NCBI GenBank assembly: GCA_032622095.1
Contig: CP136064.1
Coordinates: 5,141,512-5,205,511 of the forward strand
Direction of reading: 5' to 3'
Length of the DNA stretch: 64,000 bases
Origin: Siphonodentalium dalli
Lineage: Eukaryota; Mollusca; Scaphopoda; Gadilida; Siphonodentaliidae
Of this stretch, positions 14,095-63,884 are shown piece after piece. A model generated the notes under the pieces. It was not told where the DNA came from and searched no databases. It was given only the letters and a program-made list of their open reading frames with translations. A program made the position numbers and the translations under genes. Position 1 is the stretch's first letter. Each line of letters begins with the position of its first letter.

Positions 14095-14335
14095 GTCAAC
14101 CCTGGAGCTTCCTGAAATTTTGCGAAAACCCAGTGCCAATGATTTCTGCTATTTATGCGAGTCTCCCATAGGGAACCTCGCATATATAAGAGAACGCACT
14201 GGCTTACAAGATCAAGTAAATATTGTTAGGCTAATGCATTCTCTTATATATGCGAGACACCCTATGGGCGACTCGCATATATAAGATAATGCATTGGTGC
14301 AGGGTTTCGCAAAAAATCAGGAAGCTTCTAAATCA
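14095..14335. mobile_element. Palindrome-cassette MITE with AGCTTCCTGA ends, copy 1
   Basis: The outer inverted repeat is GAGCTTCCTGAAATTTTGCG paired with CGCAAAAAATCAGGAAGCTT. Inside are two degenerate palindromes of the GCATTCTCTTATATATGCGAG type in opposite orientation. It is a different outer end from the CCCTTTACCCAACA group around the same core. Copy 2 is at about 28805-29041. Confidence 0.6.
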
Positions 14336-14548
14336 CCTTGTATTATATAAGATAAGATACTGCTTCAATATTTAGAACTGACCATGACTATTTATGTTAG
14401 GAAGAATAAAATATAAAATATAGAATTTGCCCTCCCTCCCTCACATTTCTGAAAAAGTTGGATGTAAATCTGGAAATATATTTATATTGATCTAAGAACA
14501 AAGTTTATCTGTTTCTCCATATTCTGGTCGTTGGTGGTGTTTTTTAAA

Positions 14549-14815
14549 GTGATGTGAAACACTCCAGTATGGTGATAAAATAGAATTGGAGAATAATCTT
14601 GCTCAACGTAGTTATGTATGCAAACAATTACATCCAAATTGACAACACACGCCGTCATTCCTATATATTAATTAAATGCAGTAACTCTTGATGGCAAAAT
14701 GATTTTCGTTAGTTTATCTCTGATTGTTGCGTCCCGAATCGAGAAGTAAATATTTACGATTGAGTGTAGTTTGGATGATATTTTCTATGGAGTGGCACGT
14801 TCAATTTGCTTGAGA
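14549..14815 (+). repeat. Dispersed repeat, direct copy
   Basis: It begins TTAAAGTGATGTGAAACACTC and contains GAGAATAATCTTGCTCAA and TTTATCTCTGATTGTTGC. An inverted copy lies in the spacer between the duplications (about 20930-21210) and a third at 29250-29525 (copy 2). No open frame; function unknown. Confidence 0.65.
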
Positions 14816-14874
14816 TTTTAATTGAACTTTAACATTCATGGCTTCTCCCCCATAAGTCAGTTTCCACGGCTTAA

Positions 14875-15293
14875 CCCTTTTCCCAACAGAACGGCCCTGT
14901 GCCAATGCATTCTCTTATATATGCGAGTCGACCATAGGTCGCCTTGCATATATAAGAGAATGCATTAGCTTAACACATATTAAAAATGATAAAATTGTCA
15001 AAGAATGTAGAAAAATATTATAAAATTGTTAAAGAATGTAAGAAAAAATGGTAAAAAAATATTATTTTTTTAGGCCAATGCATTCTCTTATATATGCGAG
15101 GCGACCTATGGTCGACTCGCATATATAAGAGAATGCATTGGCACAGGGCATAACTGTAACCATCACAATGTGGTCAAGGAGCCGGTTCCAATGATATCCA
15201 TATTTGTATGGTGTTATTGAGACAGACCGGAGATATTTTAGGCTGTTGAAGCTTTATTTGGGCGTTTTTGTGGCCGGTTTGTTGGGTAAAGGG
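14875..15293. mobile_element. TTAA MITE with paired palindrome cassette, copy 1
   Basis: The terminal repeats are CCCTTTTCCCAACA (one base off the family's CCCTTTACCCAACA) and TGTTGGGTAAAGGG, flanked by TTAA at 14871-14874 and 15294-15297. Inside, two palindromes of about 68 bp, built on GCATTCTCTTATATATGCGAG arms, face each other across an AT-rich spacer. The right shoulder contains CATCACAATGTGGTCAAGG and ATTTTAGGCTGTTGAAGC. The copy 2 equivalent is at 29577-30188 with an extra internal module. Confidence 0.85.
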
Positions 15294-15297
15294 TTAA

Positions 15298-16117: not shown

Positions 16118-16726
16118 CAGTAATGCTCTAATTAATCGACTTCTTAACCACAGCAGAATTATGGGTAACTTTTCAGGATTTAGTCGGAAATATGGCTTGT
16201 TGCCATTCATCGGAAAGCTCTCATTGAGATCTTTCCGATGAATGGCAACAAGCCTTATTTCCGACTAAATCCTGAAAAATTACCAATAATTCTGCTGTAG
16301 TTAACCCTTTACCCAACAAACCGGCCAAAACCGGCCAAATAAAGCTTCAACAGCCTAAAATATCTTCGGTCTGTCTCAATAGAACCATACACATATGGAT
16401 ATCATTGGAACCGGCTTCTTGACCACATTGTGATAGTTACAGTTATGCCCTGTGCCAATGCATTCTCTTATATATGCGAGTCGACCATAGGTCGCCTCGC
16501 ATATATAAGAGAATGCATTGGCCTAAAAAAAATCTTTTTATAACACTTTTTACCATTTTTTCTTACATTCTTTAACAATTTTATAATTTTTAATGTGTTA
16601 AGCCAATGCATTCTCTTATATATGCGAGGCGACCTATGGTCGACTCGCATATATAAGAGAATGCATTGGCACAGGGCCCTTCTGTTGGGTAAAGGGTTAA
16701 AGAGTCGATTATTTAGGGCATTACTG
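16118..16726. mobile_element. TA-flanked palindromic MITE (CAGTAATGCCC family), split by a nested MITE
   Basis: The outer arms CAGTAATGCTC and TTAGGGCATTACTG are followed by TA on the right (left target now TG). The element is one long hairpin centred near 16225 (GAATGGCAACAAGCC pairs with GGCTTGTTGCCATTC). The right arm is interrupted at its internal TTAA by the 16305-16696 element. Copy 2 (31314-31516) is uninterrupted. Confidence 0.85.
16305..16696. mobile_element. TTAA palindrome-cassette MITE nested in a TA MITE; private to copy 1
   Basis: CCCTTTACCCAACA ... TGTTGGGTAAAGGG with TTAA at 16301-16304 and 16697-16700, inserted in the opposite orientation to the 14875 element. Copy 2 has a lone TTAA at 31487-31490 in the same hairpin, an exact empty site. 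It therefore moved after the segmental duplication, or excised precisely from copy 2. Confidence 0.9.
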
Positions 16727-16872
16727 TAGTAAGAAGGATTTAGGAATCACATCATGGTTGTGATAGTCTTATGCATTAAAGATGACTAATAAACAAATAT
16801 AAAATGGTTACAATGTTTATGGTAAATGAATGCCTGAAAATAATATAATGATCAACTGATTAAATGTTTTAA

Positions 16873-17231
16873 CCCTTTACCCAACATAAGGGCCCTGTGC
16901 CAATGCATTCTCTTATATATGCGAGTCGACCATAGGTCGCCTCGCATATATAAGAGAATGCATTGGCTTAACACATTAAAAATTATAAAATTGTTAAAGA
17001 ATGTAAGAAAAAATGGTAAAAAGTGTTTTTTAGGCCAATGCATTCTCTTATATATGCGAGGCGACCTATGGTCGACTCGCATATATAAGAGAATGCATTG
17101 GCACAGGGCATAACTGTAACCATCACAATGTGGTCAATGAGCCGGTTCCAATGATATCCATATTTGTATGGTTTTATTGAGACAGACCCAAGATAATTTA
17201 GGTTGTTGCAGCTTTATTTGGCCGTAAAGGG
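16873..17231. mobile_element. TTAA palindrome-cassette MITE, copy 1
   Basis: The left end is CCCTTTACCCAACA; the right end is truncated (GGCCGTAAAGGG, lacking TGTTGG), flanked by TTAA at 16869-16872 and 17232-17235. Two facing palindromes are at about 16900-16970 and 17035-17101. Shared with copy 2 (31658-32037), where the right end is more complete. Confidence 0.8.
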
Positions 17232-17235
17232 TTAA

Positions 17236-23401: not shown

Positions 23402-23865
23402 TATACGTCCAACAAAACATTCCATATACAGTTGGAAATTGTCCAACTGACGGCCTTTTCCAATTCGAAGGCTCCCATTAGAGGTGATCCAATACATGCC
23501 TACAAATTTGGAAACAATGCTCCACTAAATGCGGGCTGAAGGCTGCGCCAACGGATTAAATTTTGAAAATCGATGGCTCCCATCTGCATGAAAAGAGGTC
23601 ACCCCGAATATCCATATGAAATTTGGTGATGATCGGATGAGGGATGCGGCTTGTAGGTTCAGCCAAAGGAAACGGGCGGACACCAACCCATGGCCATAGC
23701 CGTCTCGTGGCTTTAATTTAAACCCAGCGTAAATGAGTTTTAGACGAATCCGTTACGGGGCTTTAAAACTCAGCGTATAGAATTGTTTAGACGAATTCGT
23801 TTCATTGAATAGAGGAGGGGGTCACCCCCTAACCCCTGCATCCCGAAGAGAGTGGTGAATAGTAG

Positions 23866-26115
23866 TTAACAGAGAAGGTGAGTCATGAATAAGCCTACCA
23901 GTTAACAGAGAGGGATGAATCCTGAATACCAGTTAACAGAGAGGGATGAATCCTGAATACCAGTTAACAGAGAGGGATGAATCCTGAATACCAGTTAACA
24001 GAGAGGGATGAATCCTGAATGTCAGTTAACAGAGAGGGATGGATCCTGAATACCAGTTAACAGAGAGGGATGAATCCTGAATACCAGTTAACAGAGAGGG
24101 ATGAATCCTGAATAACAGTTAACAGAGAGGGATGAATCCTGAATAACAGTTAACAGAGAGGGATGAATCCTGAATAACAGTTAACAGAGAGGGGTGAATC
24201 CTGAATATCAGTTAACAGAGAGGGGTGAATCCGGAATACCAGTTAACAGAGAGGGATGAATCCTGAATACCAGTTAACAGAGAGGGATGAATCCTGAATA
24301 TCAGTTAACAGAGAGGGATGAATCCTGAATACCAGTTAACAGAGAGGGGTGAATCCTGAATATCAGTTAACAGAGAGGGATGAATCCTGAATACCAGTTA
24401 ACAGAGAGGGATGAATCCTGAATATCAGTTAACAGAGAGGGGTGAATCCGGAATACCAGTTAACAGAGAGGGATGAATCCTGAATACCAGTTAACAGAGA
24501 GGGATGAGTCCTGAATACCAGTTAACAGAGAGGGATGAGTCCTGAATACCAGTTAACAGAGAGGGATGAATCCTGAATACCAGTTAACAGAGAGGGATGA
24601 ATCCTGAATACCAGTTAACAGAGAGGGATGAGTCCTGAATACCAGTTAACAGAGAGGGGTGAATCCTGAATACCAGTTAACAGAGAGGGATGAATCCTGA
24701 ATAACAGTTAACAGAGAGGGGTTAATCCTGAATACCAGTTAACAGAGGGGTGAATCCTGAATACCATTTAACAGAGAGGGGTGAATCCTGAATACCAGTT
24801 AACAGAGAGGGATGAATCCTGAATACCAGTTAACAGAGAGGGGTGAATCCTGAATACCAGTTAACAGAGAGGGGTGAATTCTGAATACCAGTTAACAGAG
24901 AGGGGTGAATCCTGAATACCAGTTAACATAGATGGATACCATTTAACAGAGAGGGATGAATCCTGAATACCAGTTAACAGAGAGGGATGAATCCTGAATA
25001 CCAGTTAACAGAGATGGATTAATCCTGAATACCAGTTAACAGAGAGGGTGAATCCTGAATACCAGTTAACAGAGGGTGAATCCTGAATACCAGTTAACAT
25101 AGAGGTGTGAATCCCGAATACCAGTTAACAGAGTGGGGTGAATCCTGAGTACCAGTTAACAGAGAGGGGTGAATCCTGAGTACCAGTTAACAGAGATGGG
25201 TGAATCCTGAATACCAGTTAACATAGAGGTGTGAATCCCGAATACCAGTTAACAGAGTGGGGTGAATCCTGAATACCAGTTAACAGAGGGTGAATCCTGA
25301 ATACCAGTTAACAGAGAGGGGTGAATCCCGAGTACCAGTTAACAGAGATGGGTGAATCCTGAATACCAGTTAACATAGAGGTGTGAATCCCGAATACCAG
25401 TTAACAGAGTGGGGTGAATCCTGAATACCAGTTAACAGAGAGGGGTTAATCCTGAATACCAGTTAACAGAGAGGGGTGAATCCTGAATACCAGTTAACAG
25501 AGAGGGGTGAATCCTGAATACCAGTTAACATAGATGGATACCATTTAACAGAGAGGGATGAATCCTGAATACCAGTTAACAGAGAGGGATGAATCCTGAA
25601 TACCAGTTAACAGAGATGGATTAATCCTGAATACCAGTTAACAGATAGGGTGAATCCTGAATACCAGTTAACAGACAGGGGTGAATCCTGAATACCAGTT
25701 AACAGAGAGGGTGAATCCTGAATACCAGTTAACATAGATGAATACCATTTAACAGAGAGGGATGAATCCTGAATACCAGTTAACAGAGATGGATTAATCC
25801 TGAATACAAGTTAACAGAGAGGGTGAATCCTGAATACCAGTTAACAGAGGGTGAATCCTGAATACCAGTTAACAGAGATGGATTAATCCTGAATACAAGT
25901 TAACAGAGAGGGTGAATCCTGAATACCAGTTAACAGAGGGTGAATCCTGAATACCAGTCAACAGATAGGGGTGAATTCTGAATACCAGTTAACAGAGAGG
26001 GGTGAATCCTGAGTACCAGTTAACAGAGAGGGGTGAATCCTGAATACCAGTTAACATAGAGGTGTGAATCCCGAATACCAGTTAACAGAGTGGGGTGAAT
26101 CCTGAATACCAGTCA
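23866..26115. repeat. 31-bp minisatellite, main block, copy 2 (about 72 units)
   Basis: The same unit as 7847-11255. Runs of GGGATGAGTCC and AATAACAG variants differ in order from copy 1, while the right part (from about 24920, the CATAGATGGATACC blocks) keeps the order. The arrays thus changed mostly in their left and middle parts. Confidence 0.95.
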
Positions 26116-26144
26116 CTCCCTATAGCATGAATCCTCAATATCAG

Positions 26145-26428
26145 TTAAAAGTGAAGGGTGCCGCCTGCATACCAGATAACAGAGAGGGGTGAAGTCTGTT
26201 TACCAGAAAACAGAGTGGGGTGAATCCTGCGTACCAGATAACAGAGAGGGGTGAAGCCTGCGTACCAGATAACAGAGAGAGGTGAAGCCTGCGTACCATA
26301 TAACAGAGAGGGGTGCAGCCTGCATACCAGATAATAGAGAGGGGTGAAGTCTGTTTACCAGATAACAGAGTGGGGTGAAGCCTGCGTACCAGATAACAGA
26401 GAGGGGTGCGGCCTGCATACCAGTTAAG
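26145..26428. repeat. Variant 31-bp block, copy 2
   Basis: CAGATAACAGAGAGGGG type units, about nine of them, against about thirteen in copy 1. Confidence 0.9.
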
Positions 26429-26448
26429 AAAATGTGGAACATATACTT

Positions 26449-27075
26449 AGTATTTTAACACTAATCATAGCATAAGTTTTCACGTATTTGCTGACGTAGT
26501 ATCCATAACTTCCACGTATCAAGAGGTATTAAGACTGAATTACATCAAAATATGTCATTTAGGCTGAAAAATAATCAACATTTGCAGCTGACATTTGCGT
26601 ATTTTTTACTATAAACTGAAAGCTGTGGACAGACTTTTAATCATTGAATCAAACGTTACTTGCAAATGTTTGTGTTGCTAATATTTTATTAGATACTAGA
26701 ATAATAATTGTCAAATTATAAGTTGAAAAAGAGGCATAATTCCATCAGAAATCGTCGGACCAAACACAAATTCGAACTTGACCTGTATGTTCATGCGATT
26801 AATCCATATACTAAATTTGAAAGTTTATTGGATAATATGATAACTTGATTATCATCCGGACAACAAAATAATCACCGAATTCTTAGTCGAAAAGGGGCAT
26901 AACTCCGCCAGAAATGATCCGACTGGATCCAAATTCAAACTTGATCTGGGCTTTCTCACATGAAGGCAACATACCAAGTTTCATCAAGTTCTGTTGAATA
27001 ATATTCAAGTTATTATCCGGACAACAAACGTTTCGAGCGGACATTAAATCTCCCCTCATGATCCTCAGATATGAT
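26449..27075. repeat. Degenerate tandem module pair, copy 2
   Basis: Equivalent of 11700-12330 with very few differences. Nothing coding. Confidence 0.5.
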
Positions 27076-27266
27076 ATAATGGATATGTGAACTGCACTGA
27101 TAACAGTCATAGAGATCAAAAGTTGGTACTGTTGCATATTCACTCTAAGGGCCATAACTCCCATGCATGTATTCTTCATGAGCAAATCAACGATTATTCA
27201 AATACAACCTATGACGATTGTTACAGAAAAACGGGCCCAGAGATGAATGCATGGAACTCATTTATA

Positions 27267-28022
27267 CAGGCCCCTGGGGAAAAATAACAAATATACCAAT
27301 ATATTCTATACCAGTGACAAGGTTCACAAGTACGATTTTGGGAAAAAACACACCATCTATCATATTGCTCATAGATTCTCAATATCGTTCATATCAATCA
27401 CAATATGTTTCAGTGTGTCTTATTGGTCATGAAATTTCCTTTCTTTTGATGTATAATTCCATAATATTAAACGAAGGGAAGTCGAGACATTGTACCGAAC
27501 ATTTGCAATATCAACTGGAAATTTGGGAGTAAAACGGGTCGTCAGTCTGCCTAATATATTCAATAATACTACAAAAATTGCCAACTCAGCCAAAATATGC
27601 CCCAGTGTATGTTATAGGGCATAAATTTTCTTTCGTTTGAAATCTAACTTGGCGAAGACTAATTAAGCGAAGTCGACATATCGCACGGGGAATTCGCAAG
27701 TTCTGCCATTTGAATCATAATAATTGAATTGGTATCCCTGTATAATCACTACTTACCGGACAGGGAGACTGACGACCGCTTTTCGTCGGTAGGTTTTGCT
27801 AGTTTTCGATATGACATCTCGACTTCACTGTTTGATATTATGGAATTATACATCAAAAGAAAGGAAGTTTCATGGCCAATAAGACACAATGAATTATATT
27901 GTGACTGAGAAAAAAGATTTTGAGAATCTATGAGGAATATGATAGATGGTGTGTTTTTCCAAAATCGGACATGTGAACCTTGTTACTGTTTAGTATATCT
28001 GGTATTTATCCCCAGGGGCCTG
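27267..28022. mobile_element. Foldback element with CAGGCCCCTGGGG ends, copy 2
   Basis: Equivalent of 12520-13288; the right arm has lost the ATATTGGTAT stretch. Confidence 0.7.
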
Positions 28023-28256
28023 TGCTCATTTCTATATCTTCTACCAAACTTTGTTTTATGTTTGTGGGAGAAAACGAATGAATTTCATGGGGATGAAAAA
28101 TAATCAATGTTTTATGTTTAAACACAAAATGTCTTTATATGTGTTATTTTCTTCACTTGAGATACAAATACATTTTATACACAATAACAGAACAATTTAT
28201 ATTTCATGATGATCACTTCTGTTCATTTTATACACAATAAAGAAATACAGAAGACT

Positions 28257-28615
28257 GGATAAGTCTTGTAATAGTGTGTCTGTCATTAGCAGAATGAGGT
28301 CCCCAGAGGGTGAATTTAATGATGCTACGGTGGGCTTGAATTACCAAATTCACCCTCTGGGAACCTAATTCTGCTTAGGCCACATCTGCTTTGGGAGATA
28401 TAGACTCAGATTTTGCATTTTATTTTCAGCAAATTAGGGGATAGTAACTAACAATGTTAATTGGAGAATATATATATTTCCCAGAAGATGAAGCCTAAGC
28501 AGAATGAGGTCCCCAGAGAGTGAATTTGGTGATACTAGCCAGCTGGGATAGCATCTAAATTCACCCTCTGAGGACCTCATTCTGCAAATGACAGACACAC
28601 TTTAAGCAGGCTTTT
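28257..28615. mobile_element. hAT-like MITE of the GAATGAGGTCCCCAG family, copy 2
   Basis: Equivalent of 13534-13911; missing about 20 bp in the central spacer. Confidence 0.6.
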
Positions 28616-28804
28616 GGATAAAATAACAACATTTGTATCAATGGAAACATCATTGACAGTAAAAGTGACATTAGGTGGGTATATAAATCTGTTTGAGCTG
28701 TTGACAGTGTATAGGCACTTCATAAACACCCCTCATCATGAGTAATCAATTCAAGTGGTTGTGCTAAATTGCTGATGTTGCTGGGTTAAAATGATGTTGT
28801 CAAC

Positions 28805-29041
28805 CCTGGAGCTTCCTGAAATTTTGCGAAAACCCAGTGCCAATGATTTATGCTATTTATGTGAGTATCCAATAGGGAACATCCATATATAAGAGAACGC
28901 ACTGGCTTACAAGATCAAGTAAATATTGTTATGACAATGCATTCTCTTATATATGCGAGGCGCCCTATGGGAGACTCGCTTATATAAGATAATGCATTGG
29001 TGCAGGGTTTCGCAAAAAAATCAGGAAGCTTCTAAATCACC
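28805..29041. mobile_element. Palindrome-cassette MITE with AGCTTCCTGA ends, copy 2
   Basis: Equivalent of 14095-14335. The left palindrome has decayed further here. Confidence 0.6.
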
Positions 29042-29576
29042 TTGTATTATATAAATAAGATACTGCTTCAATATTTAGAACTGACCATGACTATTTATCT
29101 TAGGAAGAATAAAATATAAAAAATAGAATTTGCCCTCCCTCCCTCACATTTCTGAAAAAGTTGGATGTAAATCTGGAAATATATTTATATTGATCTAAGA
29201 ACAAAGTTTATCTGTTTCTCCATATTCTGCTCGTTGGTGGTGTTTTTTAAAGTGATGTGAAATACTCTAGTATGGTGATAAAATAGAATTGGAGAATAAT
29301 CTTGCTCAACGTAGTTATGTATGCAAAAATTACAACCAAATTGACAACACACGCCGTCATTCCTATATATTAATTAAATGCAGTAACTCTTGATGGCAAA
29401 ATGATTTTCGTTAGTTTATCTCTGATTGTTGCGTCCCGAATCGAGAAGTAAATATTTACGATTGAGTGTAGTTCGGATGATATTTTCTATGGAATGGCAC
29501 GTTCAATTTGCTTGAGATTTTAATTGAACTTCAACATTCATGGCTTCTCCCCCATAAGTCAGTTTCCACGGCTTAA

Positions 29577-30188
29577 CCCTTTACCCAACAGAACGGCCCT
29601 GTGCCAATGCATTCTCTTATATATGCGAGTCGACCATAGGTCGCCTTGCATATATAAGAGAATGCATTGGCCTAACAATTTTTTACAATTTTAATAATTT
29701 TTTCTTGTATTCTTTAACAATTTTATAATTTCACCCATACAGAGCCCCAGACAAACATGAGCAGACGACACTCTTCTATATGCTTCTATATATGTGTGGG
29801 GCTCCCTGCAGGGTAATGGATATTGTTTAATGCATTGGCTTAACACATATTAAAAATGATAAAATTGTCAAAGAATGTAGAAAAATATTATAAAAATTGT
29901 TAAAAAATTATAAAATTGTTAAAGAATGTAAGAAAAAATGGTAAAAAGTGTTAAAAAAAAGTTTTTTTAGGCCAATGCATTCTCTTATATATGCGAGGTG
30001 ACCTATGGTCGACTCGCATATATAAGAGAATGCATTGGCACAGGGCATAACTGTAACCATCACAATGTGGTCAATGAACCGGTTCCAATGATATCCATAT
30101 TTGTACGGTTCTATTGAGACAGACCGAAGATGTTTTAGGCTGTTGAAGCTTTATTTGGGCGTTTTTGGGCGTTTTGTTGGGTAAAGGG
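29577..30188. mobile_element. TTAA palindrome-cassette MITE with extra internal module, copy 2
   Basis: CCCTTTACCCAACA ends, TTAA at 29573-29576 and 30189-30192. Compared with 14875-15293 it has an additional stretch of about 150 bp after the first palindrome, with ACCCATACAGAGCCCCAGAC and GTGGGGCTCCCTGCAGGG. The same stretch recurs in the element at 63436-63884, so modules are exchanged between elements. Confidence 0.8.
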
Positions 30189-30419
30189 TTAAAGGATATG
30201 GCTCATTTGAAAATGTATATATATATATTTTGGAAAGTGTGATATTGATATAGCAAAATTTGGAAAGAGAGATATCATACATACCTAAATGATATATTTC
30301 CGACCGAAATCATCCATATAGCACACCTAACTGTCAATTTCAATTGACTTCAACAAGTCTTTCCAAGGCCTGTACAATGATATTTAACATACTTATAAAT
30401 CTATTTCGATCAGCAGAAC

Positions 30420-31262: not shown

Positions 31263-31313
31263 CAGCTACGCATTCCAACAACAAGCAGGGAATCAATCCC
31301 ATACAGTAACGCT

Positions 31314-31516
31314 CTAAATAATCGACTCCCTTACCACAGCAGAATTATGGGTAACTTTTCAGGATTTAGTCGGAAATATGGCTTGTTGCCATTCATCGGG
31401 AAGCTCTCATTGAGAGCTTCCCGATGAATGGCAACAAGCCTTATTTCCGACTAAATCCTGAAAAGTTACCAATAATTCTGCTGTAGTTAAGGAGTCGATT
31501 ATTTAGGGCATTACTG
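31314..31516. mobile_element. Intact palindromic TA MITE, copy 2
   Basis: CAGTAACGCTC ... GGGCATTACTG between TA dinucleotides (31312-31313, 31517-31518). The full hairpin is uninterrupted, giving the empty site for the nested insertion of copy 1. Confidence 0.85.
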
Positions 31517-31657
31517 TAGTAAGAAGGGTTTAGGATTCACATCATGGTTGTTCTTATGCATTAAAGATGACTAATAAACAAATATAAAATTGTTACAATG
31601 TTTATGGTAAATGAATGCCTGAAAATAATATAATGATCAACTGATTAAATGGATTAA

Positions 31658-32037
31658 CCCTTTACCCAACAGAACGGCCCTGTGCCAATGCATTCTCTTA
31701 TATATGCGAATCGACCATAGGTCGCCTCGCATATATAAGAGAATGCATTGGCTTAACACATTAAAAATTATAAAATTGTTAAAGAATGTAAGAAAAAATG
31801 GTAAAAAGTGTTAAAAAAAGGCCAATGCATTCTCTTATATATGCGAGGCGACCTATGGTCGACTCGCATATATAAGAGAATGCATTGGCACAGGGCATAA
31901 CTGTAACCATCACAATGTGGTCAATGAGCCGGTTCCAATGATATCCATATTTGTATGGTTTTATTGAGACAGACCCAAGATAATTTAGGCTGTTGCAGCT
32001 TTATTTGGCCGTTTTTGGCCGGTTTGTTGGGTAAGGG
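31658..32037. mobile_element. TTAA palindrome-cassette MITE, copy 2
   Basis: Equivalent of 16873-17231; TTAA at 31654-31657 and 32038-32041. The right end retains GGTTTGTTGGGTAAGGG. Confidence 0.8.
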
Positions 32038-32041
32038 TTAA

Positions 32042-43330: not shown

Positions 43331-44173
43331 TTTGTCTGTAGTAAGTAGAATGATAATCAATACATCTTTAATTTTGTATTTAATCAAACACGTTTAATAT
43401 CCGCAATCAATGGTAGTATGAGTGGGAGCCACCGACAGCTCGGACATGGGAATCCAGATTTATTAAACCTTTCATGATGGGAGCTGCGCTGGTGCAACAT
43501 TAAAGACCCTGTCCCAATGCATTCTCTTAAACATGTGAGTCAATCATAGGTCGCCTCGCATATATAAGAGAATGCATTTGGGCTAAAAAAAAAATTATCA
43601 ATTTTTCTTATATTCTTTAATCATTTTTATCATTTTTTTCCTTACATTCTTTACCAATTTTTATTTTTTTTTTAATAATTTTTCTTACATTCTATAACAA
43701 TTCTTATTATTTGTTCTTATATTCTTTACCAATTTTATCATTTTGTTCTACATTCTTTAATGTTTTTTGATCATTTTTTCTTAAATTCTTTATCAATTTT
43801 TATCAATTTTTTTCTTACATTCTTTTAAAAAAAATAATATTTTTTATCATTATTTCTTACATTTTTTACCAATTTTTTATCAATTTTTTCAAGCAGCTTC
43901 CTAGTGGGAGCTAAACACCAAGGTTATTTAATGCCTGGATGAAAACAGAGAGAGGGGCCACAATAAAGCCTGGAAATAGAGGGAATCTTTTAATTGTTTG
44001 TCTGTAGTAAGTAGAATGATAATCAATACATCTTTAATTTGTATTTAATCAAACACGTTTAATATCTGCAATCAATGGTAGTATGAGTGGGAGCCACTGA
44101 CAGCACCGGCATGGGAATCCAGATTTATTAAACCTTTCATGATGGGAGCTGCGCCAGCCCAACATTAAAGACC
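43331..44173. repeat. Pair of direct repeats (about 180 bp) flanking palindrome and T-rich array
   Basis: 43331-43508 and 43998-44173 share TGTCTGTAGTAAGTAGAATG through TTAAACCTTTCATGATGGG. Between them lie a palindrome-cassette half and a T-rich TTCTTACATTCTTTA array (43575-43890). This suggests unequal exchange or a tandem duplication starting from a CATGATGGGAGC MITE. Confidence 0.75.
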
Positions 44174-44363
44174 CTTTAAAGGAGCCTTACATATATACAT
44201 GTAAGAGAATACATTGACCTAACAATATTTACCTTGACTGTGTAAGGCAGCAGTGCATTCTCTTAAATATGCGAGGCTCCCTATGGGAGATATGCATATA
44301 TTAGAGAATGCACTGGTACAGGATCTTTAATGCTGCACCAGCGCAGCGCCCATCATGAAAGTG
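44132..44363. mobile_element. TTAA MITE of the TCATGATGGGAGC type
   Basis: ACCTTTCATGATGGGAGCTG and CATCATGAAAGTG in TTAA (44128-44131, 44364-44367), with degenerate internal palindromes and subterminal AACATTAAAGACC/GATCTTTAATGC arms. Confidence 0.65.
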
Positions 44364-44409
44364 TTAATGAAGTATTAAAGGTTATTGTCTGCTTGAAAAC
44401 TGAGAGATG

Positions 44410-46043: not shown

Positions 46044-46089
46044 TCAATTTAAAGTGGGATGTGCAATAAATACAGAAAGCACTGCATGC

Positions 46090-46290
46090 TCGATCAAGGT
46101 ACGTACTTTGATATAGATATTCCGCCCTAATAAGGTACGTACTTTGATATAGATATTCCGCCAGGTTTCTCTATAATCGAGGTGACTAATAAAGTACGTA
46201 CTTTGATATAGATACTCCGCACTAATAAGGTACGTACTTTGATATAAGGTACGTACTTTGATATAAGGTACGTACTTTGATATAGATACT
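46090..46290 (-). repeat. Tandemly duplicated 5' splice site of the sulfotransferase gene
   Basis: On the minus strand ATATCAAAGTACGTAC occurs six times. The first copy is the true exon end; the others give identical GTACGT donors at 46256, 46237, 46201, 46142 and 46106. Three copies are spaced 19 bp apart. One copy also repeats the end of the exon (TATAGAGAAACC, GGCGGA). Confidence 0.85.
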
Positions 46291-47105
46291 CCGCCCGGTT
46301 TCTCTATAAAGTCCTCATGATGAAGCACTGTAGCGTTCCAAGGCAGATTAAGAAAGTTAAGAACTCGTTTCATCCACACCTGAGGATGCAGAACGAGTTG
46401 TTCGTAATACACGGGCATGCAATAATCCGGTCCGACCTGAATGCACTGAGCGTACATCGTCTCCATAGCCTGATTCCATTTCGCCATGCAATCACGGAAA
46501 CTTTCCAAATTAAAACCCGTTATCGTCACTTTTCTTTTGATTATAGAACTCACAGTGGCTCTCCCGTCTCGGATGAGAAGTAAAAACCGGGCGTTAGGAA
46601 ACAGTCGACTGAGATAAAGACTAGATTTAAGAGTAAACGGGTCCTTGTTGCACAAACGATTCGCCGCCTCGCCATGTTTGGCGATTATTTCTAAAATAAA
46701 CGCTTTAACAGCGGAATCTAAAACTTCCGAAGTTAAACCAGCCTCGTTTAAACGAGTTTTTTCGACGACTGATTTCTCCCATTGACCTCGCATTCCCAGA
46801 ATTCTCGGTATCACTCTCGTTTCCTCGCCGCATCTCACGTCGGGATGAGCGTCCAGCATTGCACGAAGAAGCGTCGTACCACTTCGCGGCATTCCACCAA
46901 TGAATATGAGAGGCATGTTCGAGTCGTATGGAATCGCTTTCTGTTCTCGGTCGTAAATGTATTTAACTTTCTCTCGCGGCACCATCACTGCACTCGGAGG
47001 TTGTTCACATAGCAGCGTGTAGTGAAGAAGAAACACTACTGAGAGAGACAGGAATATACAGTAACACACCTGTCTCATATGACATGGTCGTCCCATGGCT
47101 GACAA
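46276..47105 (-). CDS. TPST: Tyrosylprotein sulfotransferase, first coding exon
   Basis: The enzyme transfers sulfate from PAPS to tyrosines of secreted and membrane proteins in the trans-Golgi. Residues 13-32 form the single N-terminal membrane anchor of a type II protein. [12 protein letters not shown] at 70-81 is the 5'-phosphosulfate loop, followed by [16 protein letters not shown] with the probable catalytic glutamate at 95 and the arginine at 97. R179 and S187 in [13 protein letters not shown] correspond to the 3'-phosphate-binding residues. An N-glycosylation site lies at 257. Identity is therefore secure. The frame runs on to a stop at 46044, but family similarity ends at GGVSIS(K) and a GTACGT donor follows at 46275, joining the exon at 36221-36545 to give 384 residues. 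The start at 47105 is the first in frame; M4 or M10 are alternatives. No other gene is adjacent, and no promoter motif is evident. Confidence 0.95.
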
Positions 47106-47905
47106 CCAATATTATAGTACCACTTATTACTATGGATACAAAATAATTTTTGATTAATTAAAACGTTACCACATCAACTCAGACTTGATAGACGAGATTG
47201 CGAGAAAAGGCGAACAACTGTTTAAAAGTCATAAATGTTAGTTGAATCACTAGCAGTTGATGGCTTGCAATAAAAATATATTAGAATTTTCCAAAATTTC
47301 TAAGAGCAGTAATATAACAGCAGACGGCAAGTAACGAGTGAAGTTCATGAACCATCGACTGGCATGTGAAAACCCTGAAAGTATGATTCTACTAGTACTG
47401 GAAACAACTGAACATTCACATAACTAAGCACGTATTGGTCGATTCCACTTGTAGCATCATGTGACCATGTTTGTCATCTAAAAGCAGTTCCTGAATGAGT
47501 TAGGAGCCCAGAAAACAATTAACTCCCTTTAGCACGTGGAATGAAACATATGACAATCACATTCACGTGCCCCATGCTGAGCCAATCCTCAAATCCCGCT
47601 GGCTTGAAAAACCAATCAAATCACATCGCTCCGTTCTGTCAGCTAATTACACGTGTTCTTGCCAGTTGCCGTTTTGTCCAGAATTGAACCAGCTGTTTAG
47701 GAGAGCTACCCCACTGAGTCGGAAATGCCTCCTGTCATCATGTTAACTGTACAATCCAAATTCTGACATTTCTGCAAAGAGTAAAAAGAGTTATGAGATA
47801 TAAAGAGCTTCTTCTATTTGTGACAAGGGAGTGACAGTCTATTTATCGGAGCGGTAGGCGGCGTGACACTCTTCTTTATACAGTCACCTCGAGGGAGTCA
47901 TTTAA
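47106..47905. other. Upstream flank of the sulfotransferase gene
   Basis: 800 bp without recognised repeats, probably the 5' untranslated region and promoter of the minus-strand gene. No TATA box at a convincing distance. Confidence 0.4.
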
Positions 47906-48297
47906 CCCTTTACCCAACAGAAAGGCCCTGTGCCAATGCATTCTCTTATATATGCGAGTCGACCATGGGTCGCCTCGCATATATAGGAGAATGCATTGGC
48001 TTAACACATTAAAAATTATAAAATTGTTAAAGAATGTAATAAAAAATGGTAAAAAGTGTTAAAAAAAGATTTTTTTTAGGCCAATGCATTCTCTTATATA
48101 TGCGAGGCGACCTATGGTCGACTCGCATATATAAGAGAATGCATTGGCACAGGGCATAACTGTAACTATCACAATGTGGTCAAGGAGCCGGTTCCAATGA
48201 TATCCATATTTGTATGGTTCTATTGAGACAGACCGAAGATATTTTAGGCTGTTGAAGCTTTATTTGGCCGGTTTTGGCCGGTTTGTTGGGTAAAGGG
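47906..48297. mobile_element. TTAA palindrome-cassette MITE
   Basis: CCCTTTACCCAACA ... TGTTGGGTAAAGGG; TTAA at 47902-47905 and 48298-48301. Confidence 0.85.
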
Positions 48298-48417
48298 TTA
48301 ATGGCATCATGAAGACCAGATCAGATACTTAATATTTCAGACATGTCACACTCATAAGATTGAGGATCTATTTTATGAAAACCTGCATATTAATTGGTAA
48401 AATTATACAGTAATGTC

Positions 48418-48598
48418 CTAAATAATCGACTCCTTAACCACATCAGAATTATGGGTAACTTGTCAGGATTTAGTCGGAAATATGGCTTGTTGGCATTCAA
48501 TTCCGATGAATGGCAACAAGCCATATTTCTGACTAAATCCTGAAAAGTTACCCATAATTCTGCTGTGGTTAAGGAGTCGATTATTTAGGGCAGCACTG
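48418..48598. mobile_element. Palindromic TA MITE, CAGTAATGCCC family
   Basis: CAGTAATGTCC ... GGGCAGCACTG between TA dinucleotides; shortened centre (CATTCAATTCCGATG). Confidence 0.8.
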
Positions 48599-49201
48599 TA
48601 TGTCACTGGATGGTGTCCACTTGTTTGTGACTTCTGGATGTTTAATCCGATGTTGGAATATCCAATCCAGTTTTGTTTCCCATCGATGTTAAAGGCACCA
48701 GTGGCGTTCATTGCAGAAATATTCATATTTGTTCAAATCGCCATCAACAGAAGGAATATTAAAATATATATAGTTCAGTTCATATGCCAAACATAATCAG
48801 TGCGTAAATAGTATATTGTCGTCAAGACGTACGATGGTGTATGTAAACAAGAGCTGTGCTTCTGTTTACATAACACGTACGGCGCAATTCTATTGGTTAA
48901 TCATACAAAAATGATATAAACGCCCTTTATAATTTCCATATCAGGAAAACAGTAAAAAATAATGCTCTTTTAATTTACCATATCCGGATCTAAACAAAAG
49001 CCAGGTAACAAACCGTTTTTTGCTTTTGTTTACATAACAAAGGAAAAACAATTGACAATAACATACTGTTTATGCCATATTTCTGATTGGTATAAGAACA
49101 AAATCTGTCTATATTTTACTATTCTTTCTGTTTCTGGTGGTTTTTGACGGAGGTGAATATTTTAACAGCATACCCACCGCCAACGCCGCCCGTATCTTTA
49201 A

Positions 49202-49560
49202 CCCTTTACCCAACAAACCGGCCAAAACCGGCCAAATAAAGCTTCAACAGCCTAAAATATCTTCGGTCTGTCTCAATAGAACCATACAAATATGGGTATC
49301 ATTGGAACCGGCTCCTTGACCACATTGTGATAGTTAGTTATGCCCTGTGCCAATGCATTCTCTTATATATGCGAGTCGACCATAGGTTGCCTCGCATATA
49401 TAAGAGAATGCATTGGCCTAAAAAAAATCTTTTTAACATTTTTTCTTACATTCTTTAACAATTTTATAATTTTTAATGTGTTAAGCCAATGCATTCTCTT
49501 ATATATGCGAGGCGACCTATGGGAATGCATTGGCACAGGGCCCTTCTGTTGGGTAAAGGG
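49202..49560. mobile_element. TTAA palindrome-cassette MITE with one eroded palindrome
   Basis: TTAA at 49198-49201 and 49561-49564. The right palindrome has lost most of one arm (GGCGACCTATGGGAATGC), which removes its symmetry. Confidence 0.85.
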
Positions 49561-49804
49561 TTAAGTGTATTGCTCATAGTCTGCGTCAATTTTTATGACT
49601 TTTTAGACTTGGCATGAGAGAGATTTAGAAGGCTGTTTAAGGAATAATCTTCATATCCTGATATAATTACAATGTATAAATTACATTTGGGCCGAATCAC
49701 AAACATATAAATCGCGAAGAAATTTTTATTAAGTTTGTAATCGCCACAAATATATTTATATTTATGTGTAATTGTATCAAGAATAAAGATTATTCCTTAT
49801 AATA

Positions 49805-57323: not shown

Positions 57324-60300
57324 AATGAACTTATTATCTGAACATTTCCTATGGGATAACTACTCATCAAGAGAGGGTTAAACTTATTATCTGAACATTT
57401 CCTATGGGATAACTTACTGGTCAATGAGTATTTAGTATAGAAAGGGTTAAACTTATCATCTGAACATTTCCTATGGGATAACTACTCATCAATGAGTATT
57501 TAGTATAGAAAGGGTTAAACTTATCATCTGAACATTTCCTATGGGATAACTACTCATCAATGAGTATTTAGTATAGAAAGGGTTAAACTTATCATCTGAA
57601 CATTTCCTATGGGATAACTACTGGTCAATGAGTATTTAGTATAGAAAGGGTTAAACTTATTATCTTAACATTTCCTATGGGATAACGACTCATCAATGAT
57701 GATTTAGTATATAAAGGGTTAAACTTATTATCTGAACATTTCCTATGGGATAACTACTCATCAATGATGCTTTAGTATAGAAAGGGTTAAACTTATTATC
57801 TGAACATTTCCTATGGGATAACTTACTGGTCAATGAGTATTTAGTATAGAAAGGGTTAAACTTATCATCTGAACATTTCCTATGGAATAACTACTCATCA
57901 ATGATGCTTTAGTATAGAAAGGGTTAAACTTACTATCTGAATATTTCCTATGGGATAAGTACTCATCAATGATGTTTTAGTATAGAAAGGGTTAAACTTA
58001 TTATCTGAACATTTCCTATGGGATAACTACTCATCAATGATGTTTTAGTATAGAAAGGGTTAAACTTATTATCTGAACATTTCCTATGGGATAACTACTC
58101 ATCAATGATGTTTTAGTATAGAGAGGGTTAAACTTATCATCTGAACATTTCCTATGGGATAACTACTCATCAATGAGTATTTAGTATAGAAAGGGTTAAA
58201 CTTATCATCTGAACATTTCCTATGGGATAACTACTGGTCAATGAGTATTTAGTATAGAAAGGGTTAAACTTATTATCTTAACATTTCCTATGGGATAACG
58301 ACTCATCAATGATGATTTAGTATATAAAGGGTTAAACTTATTATCTGAACATTTCCTATGGGATAACTACTCATCAATGATGCTTTGGTATAGAAAGGGT
58401 TAAACTTATTATCTGAACATTTCATATGGGATAACTTACTGGTCAATGAGTATTTAGTATAGAAAGGGTTAAACTTATCATCTGAACATTTCCTATGGGA
58501 TAACTACTCATCAATGATGCTTTAGTATAGAAAGGGTTAAACTTACTATCTGAATATTTCCTATGGGATAAGTACTCATCAATGATGTTTTAGTATAGAA
58601 AGGGTTAAACTTATTATCTGAACATTTCCTATGGGATAACTACTCATCAATGATGTTTTAGTATAGAAAGGGTTAAACTTATTATCTGAACATTTCCTAT
58701 GGGATAACTACTCATCAATGATGTTTTAGTATAGAGAGGGTTAAACTTATTATCTGAACATTTCCTATGGGATAACTTACTGGTCAATGAGTATTTAGTA
58801 TAGAAAGGGTTAAACTTATCATCTGAACATTTCCTATGGGATAACTACTCATCAATGATGCTTTAGTATAGAACGGGTTAAACTTACTATCTGAATATTT
58901 CCTATGGGATAACTACTGGTCAATGAGTATTTAGTATAGAAAGGGTTAAACTTATTATCTCTGAACATTCATTATGGGATAATATCTACTCATAAATGAT
59001 GCTTTAGAATAGAAAGGGTTGAACTTATTATCTGAACATTTCCTATGCAATAACTACTCGTCAATGATTCTTTAGTATAGAAAGGGTTAAACTTATTATC
59101 TGAACATTCCCTATGGGATAACTATACTCATCAATGATGCTTTTGTATAGAAAGGGTTAAACTTATTATCTGAACATTTCCTATGGGATAACTACTCATC
59201 AATGATGCTTTAGTATAGAAAGGGTTAAACTTATTATCTGAACATTCCCTATGGGATAACTATACTCATCAATGATGCTTTTGTATAGAAAGGGTTAAAC
59301 TTATTATCTGAACATTTCCTATGGGATAACTACTCATCAATGATGCTTTAGTATAGAAAGGGTTGAACTTATTATCTGAACATTCCCTATGGGATAACTA
59401 TACTCATCAATGATGCTTTTGTATAGAAAGGGTTAAACTTATTATCTGAACATTTCCTATGGGATATTTTTTACTACTCATCAATGATGCTTTAGTATAG
59501 AAAGGGTTAAACGTATTATCTGAACATTTCATATAGTGTAATAAATACACATGAATGATGCCTTTGTATAGAACGGGTTGAACTTATTATCTGAACATTT
59601 CCTATGGGATAACTACTCACCAATGATGCTTTAGTATAGAAAGGGTTAAACTTATTATCTGAATATTTCCTATGGGATAACTACTCATCAATGATGCTTT
59701 AGTATAGAAAGGGTTAAACTTATTATGTGAATATTTCCTATGGGATAACTACTCATCAATGATGCTTTAGTATAGAGAGGGTTAAACTTATTATCTGAAC
59801 ATTTCGTATGGGATAACTACTCATCAATGATGCTTTAGTATAGAAAGGGTTAAACTTATTATCTGAATATTTCCTATGGGATAACTACTCATCAATGATG
59901 CTTTAGTATAGAAAGGGTTAAACTTATTATGTGAACATTTCCTATGGGATAACTACTCATCAATGATGCTTTAGTATAGAAAGGGTTAAACTTATTATCT
60001 GAATATTTCCTATGGGATAACTACTCATCAATGATGCTTTAGTATAGAGAGGGTTAAACTTAGTATCTGAAAATTTCCTATGGATTAACTATTCATCAAT
60101 GACGCTTTAGTATAGCCAGAGTTAAACTTATTCTCTGAACATTACCTATGGGGTAACTCCTCACCAATGATGCTTTAGTATAGAAAGGGTTAAACTTATT
60201 ATCTGAACATTTCCTATGGGATAAGTACTCATCAATGACGATTTAGTACAGAAAGGGTTAATAAGGTAACTACTCATCAATGACGCTTTAGTATAGAAAG

Positions 60301-60856
60301 GGTTAAACTATTATCTGAACATTTCCTATGGGATAACTACTCATCAATGATGCTTTAGTATAGAGAGGGTTAAACTTATTATCTGAACATTTGCTATGGG
60401 GTAACTACTCATCAATGATGCTTTAGTATAGAAAGGGTTAAACTTATTATCTGAACATTTCGTTTGGAATAACTACTCATCAATGATGCTTTAGTATAGA
60501 GAGGGTTAAACTTATTATCTGAACATTTCCTATGGGATAACTACTCGTCAATAATGCTTTAGTATAGAAAGGGTTAAACTTATTATCTGAACATTTCGTT
60601 TGGAATAACTACTCATCAATGATGCTTTAGTATAGAGAGGATTAAACTTATCATCTGAACATTTCGTATGGAATAACTACTCATCATTGATGCTTTAGTA
60701 TAGAGAGGGTTAAACTTATCATCTGAACATTTCCTATGGGATAACTACACATCAATGATACTTTAGTATAGAAAGGGTTAAACTTATTATGATATCTGAA
60801 CATTTCCTATGGAATAACAACTACTCATCAATGATGCTTTAGTATAGAAATGGTTT
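57324..60856. repeat. 68-bp minisatellite (about 52 units)
   Basis: The unit holds AAACTTATTATCTGAACATT, TCCTATGGGATAACTACTC, ATCAATGATGCTTTAGTATA and GAAAGGGTT. The early part shows a higher-order repeat of about nine units (613 bp): the TATCTTAACATTTCC variant occurs near 57661 and again near 58274 within the same series of neighbours. Units differ by point changes and small TA insertions. Each repeats one terminus of a TTAA MITE. Confidence 0.95.
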
Positions 60857-61391
60857 GGAGGCTTGAAGATGATGTGCCACTTTATTAATCAATCAAAAAC
60901 AAAGTTCCATTTGTAAAAAAAATCACATGGCACAGCTTGACAAAAGGTTTTTGTTTTGGTAAGCTTTAGGCATTACAAGTGTTTGGTCAGAGATAAATTA
61001 ATCATGGAATATTGTGGTAGGGAGGTCAACCAATACTGTCAAAAAATGACAGACACCTTATTTCAAGGCGTGTCATTTCTAATCTCATGTCACCCTGAGA
61101 TGTATTTATGATGTTTTATAACAGCAGCCTTCTTTGTATGTATGTGGGTCCCTGAGTTCAGACCCCCTCATTATGTATATATAATCTTTGATGATTTATT
61201 GTTATTTATTCATTCTCCAACGACAGAACTGCTCCATATAACATGGTCCATTGTTCTAGGTACAGGCCACATGAATAAATATTTTTATTCAATATATGAT
61301 AATATGACCCATATTAATCTCGTATTTTTTAAGGTATTTCTTAATCTAAAACATGTGTGAAGAATTGTGGTCAACCCACAGCATGTGCATG
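60857..61391. other. No gene seen; fragment of a hAT-like terminus
   Basis: Near 61045 ATGACAGACACCTTATTTCAAG marks a lone right terminus of the GAATGAGG family. The 72-codon open frame at 61142 has no recognisable domain. Confidence 0.4.
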
Positions 61392-61807
61392 CCTGAATTT
61401 TGTATGCCTGTCATTTGCAGAATGAGGTCCCCAGAGGGTGAATTTAGTCATCCTATGGGGACCTCATTCTGCTTTGGCTTTCTCTGGAAAGTTTCTTTAT
61501 TATCAAATTTCTACAGAAACTTCTCATAGATTCCATTTCTTTTTTAGTTCAGTTTCTATATATGGCCAAATTGGCAGATAACACATTGCATAATCGTGGT
61601 TCCCAGTGGGTAGTGGCTGTACATCACAATATTCACCATTTGGGAACTTCACTCTGAGTCTATGTCTCCGGTAGCAGTTAAGGCCTAAGCAGAATGAGGA
61701 CCCAGAGGGTTAATTTGGTAATGCTAGCCAACTATGCGGGATAGCGTCACTAAATTCACCTTCTGGGGACCTCATTCTGCAAATGACAGGCACACTAAAC
61801 TCAGGCT
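61392..61807. mobile_element. GAATGAGGTCCCCAG hAT-like MITE, long form
   Basis: Two hairpins (the first centrally deleted: AATTTAGTCATCCTATGGGG) and a spacer. TGTGCATG occurs on both sides (61384-61391 and 61808-61815), a probable 8-bp duplication, although the outermost CAAG bases are lost on the left. Confidence 0.7.
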
Positions 61808-61819
61808 TGTGCATGTGCT

Positions 61820-63423
61820 GGGTGGAGAAACTGTCCCTGACAGATCACTGCTTCTGGTAACAAGTTGATTCTTGTGATAACTGTAACCATGAGCTTTATA
61901 TACAGGCTTTGATTGAATATAGAACAATACTAGTATTTCTGTCGGATTCAGACATCTATTAGTCTTGAGTTTGATATTTCCAGATTGATTTAACTGGGAT
62001 TATATTAACCTTAAAACCAAGCTCCCTTGTTCTACCTGGACCTTCTTTTTCTCCGAATGGACACTATATACTGTGATTTATACAATAAGTCGAAATTTGT
62101 AATCTCGAACATTTACGCTTTATACCACAAGTCATATTCGTAATCTAGAATGTCCATGGCCCCAAATGTATGCACAATGAGCTCCCCAACTAACAGAGAA
62201 AGTGTTCTCTGCTTCACCTGTTTTATGGTGCCCACATTCATAGTGAGCAATGGGGGATGCCGCAGTGTCCGGGGCCCACAAAAAAGGTACCCTGCCTTGC
62301 TCACCGGAAGCTGTATTATGCTAATGATGAACAGATAGTCTGCCGTAGGAGCAGTTTTAGCCAGTCAAAAGTAAAAAGGCAGAAGTAAAAGATAAAATTA
62401 TAGAGCACCCTGGAAGTCAGTCAAATATCTTTTAATTATCAATATTGTATTTAGGTTGAATTATTTGTTACTATTGTTATGTAACAATCATAGTATTCAC
62501 TATGGTTATAATTGAATGCATTTATAAAAAGTTAATTAAAATTGTCGTAGGTAATTATAAAAAATTGTTAGTATGCATACCTTTAAATTATAACCAAAGT
62601 TGGTCAACAAGCCTATATATAGGTAGAAGTAAAGTCAATAATATGTTGTAGGTATAATAATGAGGTATTTGGTTTTAGTTTATACACAAAGTATAGTCTG
62701 ATAATAATGACTACTTATGGGCACCATAAAACAACTGAGAGAAAGTGTTCTCAGAGCTTCACCTGCCCACAAGACTAAATATGTGCACATGCTCTGTAAA
62801 AAAAAGACCCATTACAAAGTCCAGATGCTTTGTGTGACCCAGATATGTGAGGAAAGGGGGATGCCCGATGGCACATGAGTCCAGGACCAGATGTACCATT
62901 TCTTGCCCACCAGAAGCTGACATAAGCTACATGTAATAACAGGCAGAGCACCCTGCTGTAAAGACAGATTCAGTCAGAAAGTTGAAATAAAATAACCAAG
63001 AAAGCCAGTGATCTTTGCAGCCACCCTGTATTTATCAAAACGTGTTCTTTGTGAAAAAAAAGACCCTTTACAAAGGTCAGATGTACAACAAATCAACGAG
63101 ATTAATTTATAACAGCAGGTAATCACTGCCATGATATCGATCTTGGTTAAATTAACCTACATGTATGGAACCTGATATAACAAATATGTAAATAGATGTT
63201 CTTTGATGCTGGATGACAAGACAGTATTAAACTCTCATGGAGGAAATAAAACAGTTCTGTCTGGAGGCATCTTTGCATGACATTTAACAGTCCTCTATGG
63301 CAAACAGAAATGATGAAGACATTTGCTGAAGCAAACTGGGCCAAGGCAAAGGGTTGCCGTAGCGGATTGCCAGAGACAAACAATCTGAATTAAGAGTGCT
63401 GCATTTAATAGCTTTGACTGTGG
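61820..63423. repeat. Dispersed repeats, no gene seen
   Basis: Two diverged direct copies (about 62150-62390 and 62730-62980) share AGAGAAAGTGTTCTC, GCTTCACCTG, TTGCTCACCGGAAGCTG or TTGCCCACCAGAAGCTGACA, and CAGAGCACCCTGCTGTAAAG. They belong to the same family as 20690-20800. AT-rich otherwise. Confidence 0.5.
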
Positions 63424-63435
63424 TGTCATTTGTGA

Positions 63436-63884
63436 CCCGCCATATCAAATCCAGTCGTAAGTCGGGATTTTTTTACCCTGTGCCAATGCATTCTCTTATA
63501 TATACGAGTCGACCATAGGTCATCTCGCATATATAAGAGAATGCATTGGCCTAACAATTTTTTACAATTTTAATAATTTTTTCTTGTATTCTTTAACAAT
63601 TTTATAATTTCACCCATACAGAGCCCCAGACAAACATGAGCAGACGACACTCTTCTATATGAATCTATATATGTGTGGGGCTCCCTGCAGGGTAATGGAT
63701 GTTTTTTTATTTTATGTCCTAAAAATTGTAAGAAACATTTATTTTAAAAAAATGATAAAAAATTGTTAGGCGAATGCATTCTCTTATATATGCGAGGTGA
63801 CCTATGGTCGACTCGCATATATAAGAGAATGCATTGGCACAGGGTAAAAAAATCCCGACTTAAAACTGGATTTGATATGGCGGG
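63436..63884. mobile_element. Palindrome-cassette element with CCCGCCATATCAAATCC ends and a 12-bp flank
   Basis: The arms CCCGCCATATCAAATCCAG and CTGGATTTGATATGGCGGG are directly flanked by TGTCATTTGTGA on both sides (63424-63435, 63885-63896). Inside are two facing palindromes and the CAGAGCCCCAGAC/GGGGCTCCCTGCAG module seen at 29577-30188. A fifth type of outer end around the same core. Confidence 0.85.

Follow-up and report, generated by a model that had tools for sequence, protein, structure and literature searches.

A palindromic core shared by TTAA-type MITE families and by a family with other ends in Siphonodentalium dalli

How does the same interior come to lie between unrelated transposon ends? 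This question is raised by a 64-kb stretch (hereafter the window) of the nine-contig, 2.23-Gb genome of the scaphopod Siphonodentalium dalli, in which a first-pass annotation described a near-perfect palindrome of about 68 bp, usually arranged as a facing pair, inside miniature inverted-repeat transposable elements (MITEs) with at least five different ends. We analysed the window together with loci fetched from the genome. Our data suggest that the palindromes probably form the mobility core of a transposon type that inserts at TTAA, a core that gained different outer arms and was exchanged between families by recombination.

A 75-bp unit is shared by four end families

A 21-mer from the palindrome arm, searched with up to 3 mismatches, gave 68 matches in the window versus 0 in 100 shuffles. 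The shared unit is 75 bp long and consists of a CCCTGT edge and a 69-bp near-palindrome (GCCAATGCATTCTCTTATATATGCGAG...CTCGCATATATAAGAGAATGCATTGGC), so that the length given in the first-pass annotation was right. The layout of the core is CCCTGTGCC, palindrome, AT-rich spacer, palindrome, GGCACAGGG, the spacer between the facing palindromes measuring about 80 bp in the consensus of the family called A below and about 220 bp in that of family E. The exact 27-base outer edge (TATATAAGAGAATGCATTGGCACAGGG) occurs 139,596 times in the genome, and the reversed pattern does not occur. Folded as DNA, three tested palindromes each give one near-perfect hairpin (-27.1 to -38.8 kcal/mol, z -9.6 to -14.2). 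The arms of the palindrome fail to pair at a conserved T/C position and at a 3-base centre. Facing pairs are usual in families A, E and C/D, as annotated, but family B normally carries one palindrome. The long-spaced facing pairs of L051 and L052 were found on reading to be neighbouring or nested copies; a third such locus, L053, was scanned only.

Pairing of the ends in the window and in most fetched loci gave a set of 27 A, 12 B, 27 E and 7 C/D elements; repeat loci and transposase-only loci were left out, and loci fetched later are not counted. Family A has the ends CCCTTTACCCAACAGAASGG, with a left arm of 20 bp and a right arm of 143 bp, family B the ends CCCTTTGAGTGCCAGG or CCCTTTCAGTGCCAGG, and family C/D the end CCCTTTCATGAYKGGAGCT with two different inner arms. 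End sequences of these TTAA-type families include CCCTTTACCCAACA, CCCTTTGAGTGCCAGG (B) and CCCTTTCATGATGGGAGC. All three have in common a tip in which TTAA is followed by CCC, mostly CCCTTT; a terminal CC(C/T)T motif is present in each, with some C/D tips changed. Past CCCTTT, their arms look unrelated by eye. One D-type and one C-type arm were found in 6 of the 7 paired C/D elements (for example 40123-40343). Two of the five ends annotated originally, CATGATGGGAGC/CATGAAAGGG and AGCTTCCTGAAATTTTGCG, are the arms of this single family, and there are therefore four end families rather than five. The ends of family E, TGTGACCCGCCATATCAAATCCAG (TGTGACCCGCC), are unrelated to those of A, B and C/D. 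The elements of the window are as follows.

14871-15297, plus strand: A, paralogue copy 1, TTAA and CCCTTT tips, two palindromes
16301-16700, minus strand: A, right arm first
16869-17235, plus strand: A, right tip shortened
29573-30192, plus strand: A, paralogue copy 2 with E interior (98.7% to the E consensus over 233 bp from the cassette edge)
29671-29821 (approximate), plus strand: E-derived interior tract, then short filler and return to the A spacer
31654-32041, plus strand: A
35196-35585, minus strand: A
39580-39950, minus strand: A
40437-40826, plus strand: A
42000-42401, plus strand: A
47902-48301, plus strand: A
49198-49564, minus strand: A, one palindrome partly deleted
36645-37253, minus strand: B (CCCTTTGAGTGCCAGG), one palindrome
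41293-41530, plus strand: B, one palindrome
40123-40343, plus strand: C/D, D arm (GAAATTTTGCG) left, C arm (GCTGCACTAGCGCAG) right
44128-44367, plus strand: C/D, C arms on both sides, decayed
14085-14335 (approximate), plus strand: C/D, D arms on both sides, decayed tips
28790-29040 (approximate), plus strand: paralogue of the 14085-14335 element
63431-63888, plus strand: E (TGTGACCCGCCATATCAAATCC ends), full-length cassette
63476-63844, plus strand: cassette in E (CCCTGTGCC, palindrome ... palindrome, GGCACAGGG), its middle like a TTAACCCAT-type MITE

The elements measure 225-612 bp (A), 212-601 bp (B) and 154-257 bp (C/D). No reading frame of at least 120 amino acids lies wholly inside a listed element; one frame extends into the element at 44128-44367. 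When the exact pattern is lengthened, 20,822 of the 139,596 genomic edges continue as E and 11,173 as B; extrapolating from the sampled loci, we expect most of the remaining edges to be A. Eight 8-kb stretches taken at arbitrary round coordinates contained ten palindrome-like matches, which fell in three of the stretches, were partly at chance level and are too few for a census. In a separate observation, family B edges recur on one strand every 11.17 kb or so on contig C1 (about 831000-921000), a macrosatellite carrying a B element. The middle of the cassette in its full-length form (window about 29730-29815 and 63612-63700) also resembles a separate sequence starting TTAACCCATAGAGAGCCCCA in the right flank of locus L034, perhaps another MITE; elements may be nested three deep.

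The palindrome is preserved across families

The 75-bp consensus is identical for A-left (27 units), A-right (27), B (12) and E (55). The D consensus (5 units) departs from it by two paired changes, and divergence is higher among the five D and four C units than among those of A, B and E. A further 110 palindrome units, mostly inner edges of the same palindromes, lie outside any outer class. We surveyed the centre in 206 standard-length units of 218 found, six loci being excluded as repeats. At the two central positions by which C/D differs from the other families, changes come in pairs: G:C to T:A in 13 of the 206 palindromes (10 broken) and A:T to C:G in 15 (3 broken). The T/C mismatch, two bases outward of these positions, was paired in 0 of 206. 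The paired changes, together with a mismatch that is never paired, show that the centre is kept palindromic across families and that the two arms are not simply copied onto each other. A palindrome with a CATATG centre (2,486 exact copies) was considered as a subfamily or sixth context and rejected, the 20 stretches fetched showing mostly ordinary A and E contexts.

Most fetched loci were picked by exact palindrome match, which biases the divergence of the segments; only figures from the window are free of this bias. In the nine window A copies, divergence from the consensus was 1.4% and 0.7% for the two palindromes, 1.8% for the right arm, 3.2% for the spacer and 3.3% for the 20-bp left arm.

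The families have two kinds of target repeat

TTAA was found at both sides of 25 of 27 A elements, 7 of 10 B elements and 6 of 7 C/D elements; the B figure leaves out two of the 12 rows, which came from L053, a locus that probably duplicates L052. A, B and C/D are piggyBac/TTAA-type MITEs. None of the 27 E elements has a TTAA target duplication. Their flanks match over 2 bp in 21 of 27 cases (permutation mean 14.5, maximum 20) and over a 4-bp AWWT in 19 of 27 (mean 12.2, maximum 18), the latter being inseparable from the 2-bp repeat. The E target repeat is thus AT-rich and 2-4 bp long, and a TA duplication as in Tc1/mariner-type MITEs is a candidate for it. With other tips and no TTAA in any copy, E is not a decayed form of the other families. 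The statement that the inside is shared and the ends vary holds beyond the window: E combines other termini with the same 75-bp consensus as A and B, so that the elements neither go back to one ancestral end nor confine the cassette to one end type.

Inner edges of the core lie at TTAA in some copies

The exact sequence TTAACCCTGTGCCARTGCATTCTC, in which the core edge directly adjoins TTAA, occurs 324 times in the genome, against 18 sites for the AWTT control (two tetramers together). We read 39 of the 324 loci, 20 hand-picked from the list and 19 near-consecutive; two were duplicates, leaving 37 independent loci, whose outer 60 bases were compared by script with the known arms. The outside arm was E in 16, D in 2 and A in 1, and 18 had no known arm. 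After setting aside L122, L123, L162 and L168, which carry an E-like T-run, 14 bare TTAA edges with unrelated flanks remained (7 of 19 hand-picked, 7 of 18 other). All 18 control loci were read and 6 lacked a known arm, two of these having nearly the same flank and one (L181) its own TTAACCCTTT motif. If the sample is typical, about 120 bare edges adjoin TTAA versus about 3 per control tetramer.

In four of the 14 bare-edge loci (L119, L133, L173 and L176), the far end is an intact or near-intact outer A, D or C tip followed by TTAA. Such a pairing of inner edge and outer tip is as expected if a transposase joined the two. We infer that the CCC edge of the core can itself serve as a transposon end. 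L124 had been taken for a bare-edge element with a D end; a complete C/D element is nested there, and it was kept only as a bare edge.

An E interior is present in one A copy

Some of the window consists of tandemly duplicated sequence (such as 9121-14975 and 23856-29677, 93%), and a third paralogue lies at C4:7354200-7355400 (L159). All three copies have an A element at the same TTAA. The element of copy 2 (29573-30192) contains 168 extra bases, about 144 of which match the E interior, and this tract with the adjoining palindrome is 98.7% identical to the E consensus over 233 bp. In the remaining 26 A elements, the listed matches of more than 100 bp stayed at or below 94%, most of them at 84-92%. 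Since copies 1 and 3 lack the E tract, its gain in copy 2 is the simplest reading; two separate losses may be the alternative. The tract, which starts in or after the palindrome, breaks off midway through the E spacer, and its return point is near AATGCATTGGCTTAAC. These limits indicate that it does not result from transposition of E; they fit conversion or templated repair by way of the palindrome. The A element of copy 3 is reversed at that TTAA site relative to 14871-15297 and 29573-30192, as a result of inversion, of excision and re-insertion or of a separate insertion.

The suggestion that the cassette is copied or captured therefore gains support on two sides, from an E interior in one A copy that is absent from its two paralogues and from the core edge at TTAA in some copies. 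The palindromes had also been proposed as preferred landing sites. E is inserted at ATATAT within another palindrome copy clearly in L082 and probably in L086, but not in the remainder of the 27 E copies, which makes for weak support.

Arms and core are stable partners today

If the cassette inserted at random, the base following its edge would be a purine about half of the time. A purine follows only 1,288 of the 139,596 exact edges (0.9%), and reading of 15 of these loci showed altered versions of known arms in 13. A different base at the join occurs in 285 B arms and 98 E arms. A joined empty A site, searched with up to one mismatch, has 0 matches in the genome. Rare purine edges, mutated known contexts, few altered joins and the missing empty A site together indicate that arms and core are stable partners today. 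The purine-edge and altered-join counts thus speak against a freely hopping cassette as a current process.

Among the loci read, there was no clean cassette-only copy with a pair of TTAA. The nearest to it is L134, a cassette without a known arm on either side, flanked by TTAA at one end and by TTGC at the other. Among other loci that had suggested cassette-only copies, L102 (L038/L102) is an E copy that has lost its left arm, L162 is probably an E copy with lost arms, and L035 and L099 are unassigned, as are L041 and the left side of L103.

piggyBac transposase genes are plentiful

The genome has at least 128 matches to piggyBac transposases (116 of 649 candidates scored). We examined 29 piggyBac copies, 10 as loci and 19 by their flanks (one of these one-sided). 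No A, B, C or D ends were found in the fetched stretches of these copies, and no autonomous partner was recognised among them. The TTAACCCTTT motif is present in the flanks of some of them and is a candidate tip only.

Other features of the window

A protein-tyrosine sulfotransferase-like frame (46044-47111, minus strand; best PDB match E 6.9e-106) is the sole clear gene piece identified in the window, and its end runs into a 19-bp tandem repeat (46225-46284). Protein-tyrosine sulfotransferase is an animal type of protein. Fold-back elements, most with ACAGTAATGCCCTAAATAATCGACTCC-type ends, form hairpins of 160-220 bp that are 93-96% paired (16144-16304, 31302-31518, 35978-36194 and 48405-48601). 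A 68-bp satellite occupies 57370-60855; GGGTTAA (TTAACCCTTTCTATAC on the opposite strand) is found in many units of the satellite, as though a MITE tip with TTAA and CCCTTT had grown into a tandem array. A 31-bp tandem repeat (TACCAGTTAACAGAGAGGG...) lies at 7885-11679 and 23896-26427, within the tandem duplication.

Origin of the shared core

The elements have a shared core, different arms and two kinds of target repeat; bare edges show an excess of TTAA, and one exchange is seen. We consider it probable that a mobility core of TTAA type gained outer arms and was exchanged by recombination. The core would be an old part of a TTAA-inserting, piggyBac-type MITE lineage, with its own CCC edge usable as an end. 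Outer arms would have been joined to it more than once, giving A, B and C/D and, with the arms of another transposon type, E. Each extended version would then have amplified into a stable family, while cores would still be swapped among families by recombination or templated repair via the near-identical palindromes. A piggyBac-type transposase presumably moves A, B and C/D. By analogy with known systems, the palindrome may be its subterminal binding site, the tip requiring little more than CCC. The manner in which each arm first joined the core is likewise something we infer. The other ends of E would mean that the core either is used by a second transposase or plays a passive part in that family. 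It is rather doubtful, though conceivable, that the cassette is a portable mobility module serving two unrelated transposases, one of the TTAA/piggyBac type and one of the AT-rich-target type of E, between which MITE families would swap ends and modules.

Several observations weigh against a core that gained arms. No joined empty A site was found, as stated above, and a simple insertion of the core at a TTAA of a host MITE is not visible, because no TTAA bounds the core within A, B or C/D elements. Of the 14 bare-edge loci, ten show no pair of TTAA: at their far end there is a break, an E arm (L172) or no TTAA (L134), or that end lies beyond the stretch read, and truncation may be behind these ten. 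Within A, the palindromes are only modestly better conserved than the arms. Finally, the palindrome was absent from the fetched stretches of the 29 piggyBac copies, apart from one weak match with 6 mismatches (L056).

A single transposon family with drifting tips appears possible, if somewhat unlikely. Its transposase would need only CCC and the palindromes, and the interior would be held by selection for mobility. The tip of TTAA and CCC common to A, B and C/D is in line with this, as is the palindrome being the best-conserved part between families; the authors describing the coral CMITEs discussed below suggest that a tip motif and a conserved interior may suffice (PMC2872659), and subterminal palindromes are bound by the piggyBac and piggyBat transposases (PMC11707139). 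However, no likeness beyond CCCTTT is apparent by eye between the arms of A, B and C/D, these arms differ in length and layout (20 bp and 143 bp in A, one palindrome in B), the 75-bp consensus is unchanged across A, B and E, and E has other tips and another target repeat.

Insertion at or by the palindromes themselves fares less well. It is improbable that they are passive apart from being hot spots for landing or recombination, with families made alike by mutual insertion or conversion. This would account for the E interior in A copy 2, for the nested copies in the window and L051 and for the E copies inserted in a palindrome (one or two of 27), but the arm-core join lies at the same base within a family in most sampled copies, which indicates a few founding joins rather than continual insertion. 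We regard as very unlikely that the cassette is an independent transposon still inserting in other MITEs. Its edge does adjoin TTAA in some copies, and L134 is armless between TTAA and TTGC, but the scarcity of purine edges, most of those read being altered known contexts, the few altered joins of B and E and the lack of an empty A site all speak against it. A core that gained outer arms more than once remains the reading we prefer.

Relation to known elements

An Rfam search gave no family reaching the gathering threshold, and none of the papers listed in literature searches could be linked to this repeat. The first-pass suggestion of an undescribed system was nevertheless too strong, as coral CMITEs, piggyBac/TTAA MITEs described by Wang et al. 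in 2010, already combine conserved interiors with variable CCC tips at TTAA (PMC2872659). They resemble A, B and C/D in having different terminal inverted repeats, a shared and better-conserved interior, a TTAA duplication and CCC tips (CCCTTT in five of six families), as well as in occurring in tandem arrays and in having built a new element through insertion (CMITE-IN); the origin of the interior is left unexplained there (PMC2872659). They differ in size and number, with about 100 bp and an estimated 1600 copies or so, and neither a long palindrome, the use of an inner edge nor an interior held in common with a non-TTAA family is reported in the available part (PMC2872659). The 60-bp CMITE interior matched the window at chance level only (best blastn-short match 13 bp, E 0.039) and gave no match to the A or E consensus. 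What is new beyond CMITE is a non-TTAA member, a long palindrome and two footprints, the inner edge at TTAA and the E tract in A.

Other likenesses are more partial. piggyBac, which inserts at TTAA (PMC2872659), and piggyBat have a palindrome near their ends that is bound by the C-terminal domains of the transposase (PMC11707139). The piggyBac palindrome is 19 bp long (PMC11707139), whereas that described here is about 69 bp, usually occurs twice per element and has no linked transposase. MSITEs (Microuli), compared by description, have subterminal inverted repeats within an outer sequence and a TTAA duplication (PMC2872659). The composite-like KolobokP elements also enclose repeats with their own ends in a larger element, the inner unit being thought to move alone, but these are long direct repeats with 3-5 bp duplications for solo repeats, protein-coding, and with 5'-RR instead of CCC tips (PMC9587614). 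For family E, ATon elements may be considered by description: they too are short and non-autonomous, with terminal inverted repeats, and they insert at the dinucleotide AT (PMC3422177).

MITE families are usually named by their ends. In this genome, the ends look replaceable and the middle looks like the lineage, on a scale of about 140,000 exact edges. Two steps can be traced in single copies, namely an inner edge placed at TTAA and a middle copied between families. The puzzle of the CMITE interior becomes testable here.

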